Source: Tannerella sp.
GTDB taxonomy: Bacteria; Bacteroidota; Bacteroidia; Bacteroidales; Tannerellaceae
Length of the DNA stretch: 37,959 bases
Direction of reading: 5' to 3'
Assembly (NCBI GenBank): GCA_031289275.1
Contig: JAITPV010000184.1
Coordinates: 1-37,959 of the forward strand
This document shows positions 12,010-37,959 of the stretch, in pieces (the first letter of the stretch is position 1; every line of letters starts with the position of its first letter). The notes under the pieces are model-generated. The model made no database searches. It worked only from the letters and a program-made list of their open reading frames with translations, and was not told the DNA's origin. A program made the translations under genes and the position numbers.

Positions 12010-12035
12010 TGAGGCGAACGGATAAGCGCCGACAG

Positions 12036-12127
12036 AGTAGCGTTACTTGGTGTGACCAAGTAACGCTACTTGGTGCAACGGAGTAACGTTACTTGGGGTG
12101 ACGAAGTAACGTTACTTGGTCGCACCA
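12036..12127. repeat. Tandem array of four 23-bp palindrome-containing units
   Basis: Units at 12036, 12059, 12082 and 12105; core AGTARCGYTACTTGG; units 1+2 form a perfect 16-bp stem with a 3-nt loop. Confidence 0.95.
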
Positions 12128-25773: not shown

Positions 25774-26010
25774 AACATATTCCTTATATGATTGATATTT
25801 TCTAAACGGAACAAAGATGAAAATATTTCGGGCGGATTATTTTTTGAAGCGTTATTTTATTCTAAGGGATGGCAAAGAAACAGCATAATAAACACTTTGG
25901 TAAATTGGGCGACCGTTCCGGGCGGCGTAGAAAAATTTCACGGAGGCCGGCTTTTAGCTGCGACGTAGCGAAAGACGCTACGCCGAACGGGGGGAATCCG
26001 AAGGATTCAC

Positions 26011-26156
26011 ATGTTTATAGCACAATCCATCAACATGTACGGACGTGGCGCGCCGCGTCTCTACAACGGCAGGACACGGCGACCGCACGGTATCGCGACA
26101 TACATTCGACCCTTTTGGGGTCGTACTTCTCCGGTCATGGCGGATGCTATAAACAT
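26011..26156. mobile_element. Small non-coding element bounded by inverted repeats ATGTTTATAGCA ... TGCTATAAACAT (copy A, 146 bp)
   Basis: 12-bp perfect terminal inverted repeats at 26011-26022 and 26145-26156; second copy at 37877-37959. Confidence 0.75.
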
Positions 26157-26249
26157 GCGACCCGCCGGGTCGTTGGATTCGCCGGCATACTCTTTTTGAT
26201 CTGCGTAAATCCGCGTTTGAATCTGCGTCATCTGCGTGCAATAACATAA

Positions 26250-26500: not shown

Positions 26501-26752
26501 ACGCCTGCCCACGCATGGGCAAGCGCTTCCGAACGCTCCCGACGGCCTGCCCTGCTTTGGGCAAGCGATCCCGAATACTCCAGCCGACTTGCCCAACTGC
26601 GGGCAAACCTCTCCGAGCCTTCCCGTCGCCTTGCCCAACCATGGGCAAATACTTCCGAACGCTCTCAACGGCCTGCTCAACCTTGGGCAAGCGCTCCCAG
26701 ACGCTCCCGACGGCCTGCCAAAGGTTGGGCAAGGCCTTCGGAACGCTTTACG
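26501..26752. repeat. Six tandem copies of a 42-bp unit (minisatellite)
   Basis: The TGCCC anchor recurs at 26506, 26548, 26590, 26632, 26674 and 26716, exactly 42 bp apart. Confidence 0.95.
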
Positions 26753-37795: not shown

Positions 37796-37876
37796 TGGGC
37801 GATTGCTTTTGCCGTTCCTGCGGGACTGCGACGTAGCGAGAACGTTACACCGAACGGGAGAATCCGAAGGATTCAT

Positions 37877-37959
37877 ATGTTTATAGCACAATCCATCACT
37901 ACATACATTCGACTCCTTCGGAGTCGCACCTCTTCGGTTATGGCGGTTGCTATAAACAT
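37877..37959. mobile_element. Small TIR element ATGTTTATAGCA ... TGCTATAAACAT (copy B, 83 bp) ending at window edge
   Basis: 12-bp TIRs at 37877-37888 and 37948-37959; homologous to 26011-26156. Confidence 0.8.

Follow-up and report, generated by a model that had tools for sequence, protein, structure and literature searches.

Short paired-hairpin repeats of Tannerella as probable ends-only derivatives of transposons with subclass 1.2 TnpA_Y1 transposases

We have analysed a 37,959-nucleotide contig of Tannerella sp. (JAITPV010000184.1, assembly GCA_031289275.1; this whole stretch is referred to as the window), which holds two copies, A and B, of a short element made of hairpins and of inverted repeats that contain a 10-bp tag, ATGTTTATAG. 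Based on its anatomy, the covariation of its hairpins, the ends that it shares with transposase genes, the co-variation of tag and transposase and the agreement of inner hairpins and spacers, all of them observed at the level of sequence, this element is very probably a non-autonomous, ends-only derivative of an HUH/Y1 transposon with a TnpA_Y1 transposase of subclass 1.2. In the transposons concerned, each end consists of an outer hairpin, 2 nt, a transposase-specific tag of about 10 nt (CTATAAACAT in the present family, read outwards), about 23 nt and an inner hairpin, and the two ends are inverted copies on either side of the transposase gene. This provides a concrete and testable substrate for an HUH subclass that has been described as having no recognisable DNA partner.

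Ends shared with transposase genes

The family was searched for with the pattern ATGTTTATAG N48-78 CTATAAACAT, which is present in four genomes beyond the window's own among 396 sampled genomes of the phylum and in at least 117 stretches of named genomes, mostly from Bacteroidota and also from Ignavibacteriae, Acidobacteria (Blastocatellia, Chloracidobacterium) and Candidatus Poribacteria; three matches (L125, L164, L100) have the pattern without the hairpins and look like chance. A Y1_Tnp gene adjoins two of the four phylum-sample matches, and one locus (L176) holds a complete element, with the order hairpin, tag, inner hairpin, Y1 gene, inner hairpin, tag, hairpin. Ends of the same kind were recovered de novo, with no tag assumed, in the 350 bp on either side of 65 genes with the motif Y..NQ..HH, any 10-mer followed by a hairpin being accepted when an inverted 10-mer on the opposite side matched it at 9 or more of its 10 positions. 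Such matched ends flank 32 of the 65 subclass-1.2 genes, against 3.9 expected from mis-paired flanks, and four of 12 genes (0.18 expected) in an independent set from relatives of the window's genome that had not been chosen for the element. None was found at the eight class-1.1 genes, a small control.

The tags vary between genes, 31 of 37 starting with (G)CTA, and their similarity tracks that of the proteins (Mantel r 0.55, computed below 60% protein identity; permutation standard deviation 0.08, no permutation as high). The hairpin stems correlate less with the protein (0.15 and 0.31), a pattern that fits recognition of the tag by its sequence and of the hairpin by its shape. Dozens of natural transposase-tag pairs could be readable as a recognition code. 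One locus from Poribacteria (L190) has a subclass-1.2 gene flanked by another tag (CTATACACCT), and ATGTTTATAG elements are present in the same genome, which suggests several transposase-tag pairs per genome.

The gene-bearing and the short forms agree further inside. Perfect 7-bp inner hairpins occur at 12 of 74 gene-bearing ends (0.3 expected). Most of them lie 22-32 nt inwards from the tag, at 22-24 nt in copies of the ATGTTTATAG type, and those of the two ends are often the same, being identical or nearly so in three loci (L211, L224, L252). The short elements have one inner hairpin, flanked by spacers with a median length of 23 nt each, so that autonomous and short forms have in common the outer hairpin, the tag, the 22-24 nt spacing and the inner hairpin. 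A precedent is given by the PATEs of Haloquadratum, which consist only of the termini of IS605-type elements and arose by deletion between palindromes close to the ends (PMC3119063). The present elements resemble them in being ends-only and in the route of deletion that we propose; they differ in having inverted terminal repeats, which PATEs lack, in the transposase subclass and in the phyla concerned. Where the inner palindromes of the two ends are identical, they are also direct repeats, and one deletion between them would remove the gene and leave a short element, a simple route from gene-bearing to gene-less transposons. Besides this origin by deletion, we infer single-strand chemistry and mobilisation in trans: most likely, the transposase acts on single-stranded DNA, where it reads the sequence of the tag and the shape of the hairpins; its tyrosine would cut near the outer hairpins, and the short copies would spread in trans, mostly into the 3' ends of genes.

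The transposase

The transposase associated with these ends is an HUH Y1 protein of about 155 aa with the motif Y..NQ..HH (153-154 aa in L252 and L176), in which H55, H57, W95, Q96, Y115, Q119, H122 and H123 are invariant across an alignment of 25 proteins. Two of these proteins scored 76.9 and 95.9 bits with Pfam PF01797 (Y1_Tnp; cut-off 23) and 56 and 71 bits with NCBIfam NF033573 (IS200-like; cut-off 55), and both failed NF047646 (REP transposase; 20 and 32 bits, cut-off 80). A single-sequence search of the PDB returned nothing at 1e-3; a profile search matched the transposases of ISDra2 and ISHp608, and the predicted structure (pLDDT 88.8) has an IS200-like fold whose best solved matches are the transposases of ISDra2 and IS608, E. 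coli TnpA_REP being a weaker structural match.

Subclass 1.2 was delineated by Quentin et al. 2018 in Bacteroidota by the motifs DH[IV]H, WQ and YIxNQxxHH and a length of about 150 aa, with the entry 'no' for repetitive extragenic palindromes (REPs) and no typical terminal structures (PMC6006769). The proteins found between our ends, likewise from Bacteroidota, carry DH[IV]H, WQ and Y---Q--HH and are of the class of about 148 aa, and on these features of sequence the associated transposase is assigned to subclass 1.2. What departs from the published description is that about half of the genes (32/65, and 4/12 in the independent set) have tag-and-hairpin ends, and that short derivatives exist. 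This disputes the description and not the membership, since the subclass is defined by the protein.

The first-pass annotation of the window had suggested a source of the RAYT or IS200-like kind, of which the HUH tyrosine transposase system acting in trans stands and the RAYT does not. A class-2 RAYT moving GTAG-type REPINs (TnpA_REP) would account for the occurrence of short intergenic hairpins as inverted pairs and for their arrays beside a Y1 gene, an arrangement reminiscent of REPtrons. In REPs, the foot of the hairpin bears GT[AG]G (PMC6006769); this tetranucleotide is absent here, and in 199 half-ends CTATAAACAT and 2 nt precede the hairpin. The tags are innermost and the hairpins outermost, the proteins pass the IS200 cut-off and stay far below that for REP transposases, and their motif is Y..NQ..HH, not Y...NP. 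We therefore regard a RAYT origin as very unlikely. The likeness to REPs and REPINs lies in short, intergenic, non-autonomous hairpins, in inverted pairs, in arrays by the gene and in a gene-specific sequence; the difference lies in a longer, variable tag beginning with (G)CTA and in a class 1 enzyme.

A fixed plan with covarying hairpins

The short elements follow a fixed plan: an outer 6-bp hairpin, 2 nt, the 10-bp tag ATGTTTATAG, 23 nt and the inner hairpin, then the mirror image, with 23 nt, the inverted tag, 2 nt and the second outer hairpin. Among the 286 half-ends of 143 copies, 236 carry, at a distance of exactly 2 nt outwards from the tag, a hairpin with a 6-bp stem and a loop of 3 nt; every other combination of offset and loop occurs at 20 half-ends or fewer, except the equivalent 1-nt/5-nt register, which describes the same hairpins. 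The outer stems of these copies have more than 50 distinct sequences. When 78 copies from as many genomes are aligned, base pairing is kept in 94% of cells, a value inflated by the tag columns, which are invariant through the design of the search; the three hairpins alone give 87-95%. Tag conservation in this alignment is not counted as evidence, the tag being fixed by the search. Both sides have changed in 18 of 29 pairs, with 256 double-changed cells against 61.9 (standard deviation 8.8) in shuffled data and 31-66 when partners were slid: hairpin sequences turn over and pairing stays. Copies A and B alone prove little, and the case rests on these 78 copies. A separate idea, that the left and right outer hairpins are forced to differ and thereby avoid cross-pairing, was rejected, the two being identical in 5 of 60 genomes (3.6 expected).

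The first-pass annotation, made from A and B, had proposed a folded, covarying element of the REP or MITE (miniature inverted-repeat transposable element) kind. Its observation was real, with small errors, and is partly confirmed; its interpretation is partly supported. The element is indeed folded and covarying, with an ample excess of double changes, and has many copies, so that neither of the two conditions named there for a refutation holds: the window's genome (3.0 Mb in 252 contigs, 85% complete) holds 14 exact paired copies, against no match for the reversed control, and at least 19 when up to two mismatches per tag are allowed. Chance likeness of two intergenic palindromes was conceivable as long as two copies were known, 12-mers with two mismatches being expected about 2.3 times in the window; it is refuted by the paired matches and the family-wide covariation, and its remaining probability is negligible.

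The inverted repeats had been taken for termini. In the base profile of 199 half-ends, conservation drops to background right after the outer hairpin, which is therefore the end of the element, and the hairpins are its outermost parts. This bears on a classical DDE MITE with terminal inverted repeats and target-site duplications, to which a short, gene-less element with inverted repeats on both sides has an obvious resemblance. Here the inverted repeats are not terminal, since conservation runs through the hairpins to their outer feet; DDE enzymes do not need covarying hairpins; and the gene between identical ends encodes a Y1 enzyme. By eye, no target-site duplications were seen in the flanks of the listed copies, for which there was no systematic count and no exact empty site. 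Such a MITE is a most improbable source, even more so than a RAYT, and we conclude that the source is neither.

With simple calling of open reading frames, 145 of 148 copies lie outside long frames; spaces between convergent genes are enriched (33 of 89, compared with 70 of 452 overall), and those between divergent genes are depleted. This placement would suit a function in RNA at transcript ends (a terminator, a stabiliser of mRNA 3' ends or an RNase target), the spread being incidental, and covariation alone cannot separate folded RNA from folded single-stranded DNA. However, ends of the same kind bound a transposase gene, the tag of about 10 nt follows the transposase lineage, and placement between genes, at 3' ends, would also result from selection against harmful insertions; an Rfam scan of the window matched no family. 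A function in RNA is thus unlikely, although it is the strongest of the alternatives. Tandem arrays of the element with conserved spacers were seen in three loci (L050 from Mongoliibacter ruber, with 11 exact copies, L183 and L195); those in L183 and L195 adjoin a transposase gene.

Copies A and B in the window

The annotated inverted repeats of 12 bp, ATGTTTATAGCA/TGCTATAAACAT, are perfect in both copies: 26011-26022 pairs with 26145-26156 in A, and 37877-37888 with 37948-37959 in B. Both fold far better than shuffled sequences (z -4.97 for A, -3.93 for B). The parts are as follows.

25994..26008, no strand: copy A left outer hairpin GAATCC-gaa-GGATTC, at the terminus of the element (sequence and folding; conservation ends at its outer foot in 199 half-ends)
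26011..26020, + strand: copy A left tag ATGTTTATAG, the inverted repeat being 12 bp with the following CA (sequence)
26033..26095, + strand: 63-bp second repeat within the left spacer of copy A (comparison with copy B; present in L002, also alone)
26107..26123, no strand: copy A inner hairpin CGACCCTTTTGGGGTCG (sequence and folding)
26147..26156, - strand: copy A right tag CTATAAACAT (sequence)
26158..26172, no strand: copy A right outer hairpin CGACCC-gcc-GGGTCG, or CGACCCgccGGGTCG (sequence)
37860..37874, no strand: copy B left outer hairpin GAATCC-gaa-GGATTC (sequence and folding)
37877..37886, + strand: copy B left tag ATGTTTATAG (sequence)
37910..37926, no strand: copy B inner hairpin CGACTCC-TTC-GGAGTCG, 23 nt from either tag (sequence and folding)
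37950..37959, - strand: copy B right tag CTATAAACAT, at the contig end (sequence)

The flanking hairpins that had been noted are borne out on the left, where GAATCCgaaGGATTC stands 2 nt beyond the repeat in both copies; on the right, the contig end cuts copy B and its outer hairpin is absent from the assembly. The internal hairpins differ, as noted, by one compensated change of C-G to T-A; that of copy A is, however, CGACCCTTTTGGGGTCG and not CGACCCCttttGGGGTCG, and its top pair is T-G. The length difference of 63 bp is caused by the second repeat in the left spacer of A. The flank immediately after the right outer hairpin of A is TTGGATTCGC, and element-free sites carry ..TTGGGATTCGC; such element-free occurrences of neighbouring repeats in the window's genome back the right boundary only. 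Elsewhere in this genome the common form reads GAATCC hairpin, AC, ATGTTTATAG, 23 nt, CGACYCC hairpin, 23 nt, CTATAAACAT, G, CGACCCnnnGGGTCG. The ends of several contigs fall within or next to a copy (e.g. C249, C151, C86), as expected since the element is a repeat.

Weighing the proposal

Several findings weigh against derivation from subclass-1.2 transposons. No subclass-1.2 gene was detected in the window's genome as assembled, whose sole Y1 match is a contig-end fragment with an in-frame stop that does not lie beside an element; this fragment was rejected as cognate transposase, its membership of subclass 1.2 not being established. The exact element is present in only one of 36 congeners. 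Since no cognate transposase was detected, the copies in the window's genome appear orphaned, and they may be relics, or the transposase may sit in the unassembled part. Two further element-bearing genomes are without a detected subclass-1.2 gene, one having no Y1 match (G409) and the other only a class-2-like one (G401). About half of the subclass-1.2 genes have no matched ends at the threshold used, and shared descent of the flanks could be part of the correlation between tag and protein, although the stems share that descent and yet correlate less. In the comparisons made, neither an exact empty site nor a target sequence or an excision joint was found: when joined flanks were searched against the loci, the matches listed were mostly rearrangements of arrays, none of them a clean site. 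At the Algoriphagus lutimaris locus, element and gene are both missing from a related genome of that genus, and the edges have diverged; this shows presence and absence rather than the joint itself. A second Algoriphagus element had no alignable intergenic region in the comparison.

IS200/IS605 transposons (IS608, ISDra2) insert 3' of a short target that is chosen by guide pairing, through an intermediate in the form of a single-strand circle. The relation to them lies in an HUH Y1 transposase of the same fold and in hairpins near the ends; in the flanks inspected by eye, no sign of target duplication was seen. The ends of IS200/IS605 are palindromes with 5' tetranucleotide guides (PMC8266576), without terminal inverted repeats (PMC2817692). 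That combination of subterminal hairpins and no terminal inverted repeats is not what we find: the present ends are inverted-symmetric, with two hairpins each and a tag of about 10 nt between them. We tentatively suggest, as a possibility somewhat short of even, that subclass 1.2 comprises a distinct group of single-strand transposons, the ends of which are inverted-symmetric and have two hairpins each. In this group, a tag of about 10 nt beginning with (G)CTA, particular to each transposase, would specify recognition and perhaps the cut site, and the ends-only copies would be a widespread class of bacterial intergenic repeats. Given the symmetry of the ends, the transposase could use either of the two DNA strands, in contrast to the strand-biased IS200/IS605 elements. 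Derivation from subclass-1.2 transposons would account for a large set of otherwise unexplained palindromes between genes in Bacteroidota, Acidobacteria, Ignavibacteriae and Poribacteria; such repeats interrupt assemblies and may be misleading in the search for small RNAs. In a search of the open-access literature for the tag, the papers listed were all unrelated; subscription papers or ISfinder could hold a prior description.

Neighbouring repeats

The CGTAGCG..CGCTACG stem upstream of both copies had been annotated together with them as kept, with a G-T wobble in B. The wobble is there, and B has in addition a terminal C-A mismatch; the stem is no part of the element but of another repeat, which is likewise found where the element is missing. 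This repeat is a second REP-like doublet, TTTTAGCTGCGACGTAGCG..CGCTACGCCGAACG with its mate CGTTCGGCGAAGTC..GACTTCGTCGTGCTAAA (window 25955-25990 and 37826-37855), found with and without the main element and also in L281, L282 and L285. The third repeat (GTACGGACGTGGCGCGCCGCGTCTCTACAA.., window 26033-26095), which lies inside copy A and one other copy (L002), stands alone elsewhere and is also found on contigs C56, C195, C250, C99, C202 and C69 of the window's genome. A mosaic intergenic block, TACTCTTTTTGATCTGCGTAAATCTGCGT..ATCTGCGTGCAAT, occupies 26185-26230 of the window and about 12 other places in the genome, often adjoining the element. Finally, intergenic DNA of the window contains tandem repeats of 42 bp (four units) and of 23 bp (GACSAAGTAACGTTACTTGGT-like, four units), at 26506-26732 and 12031-12122, respectively.
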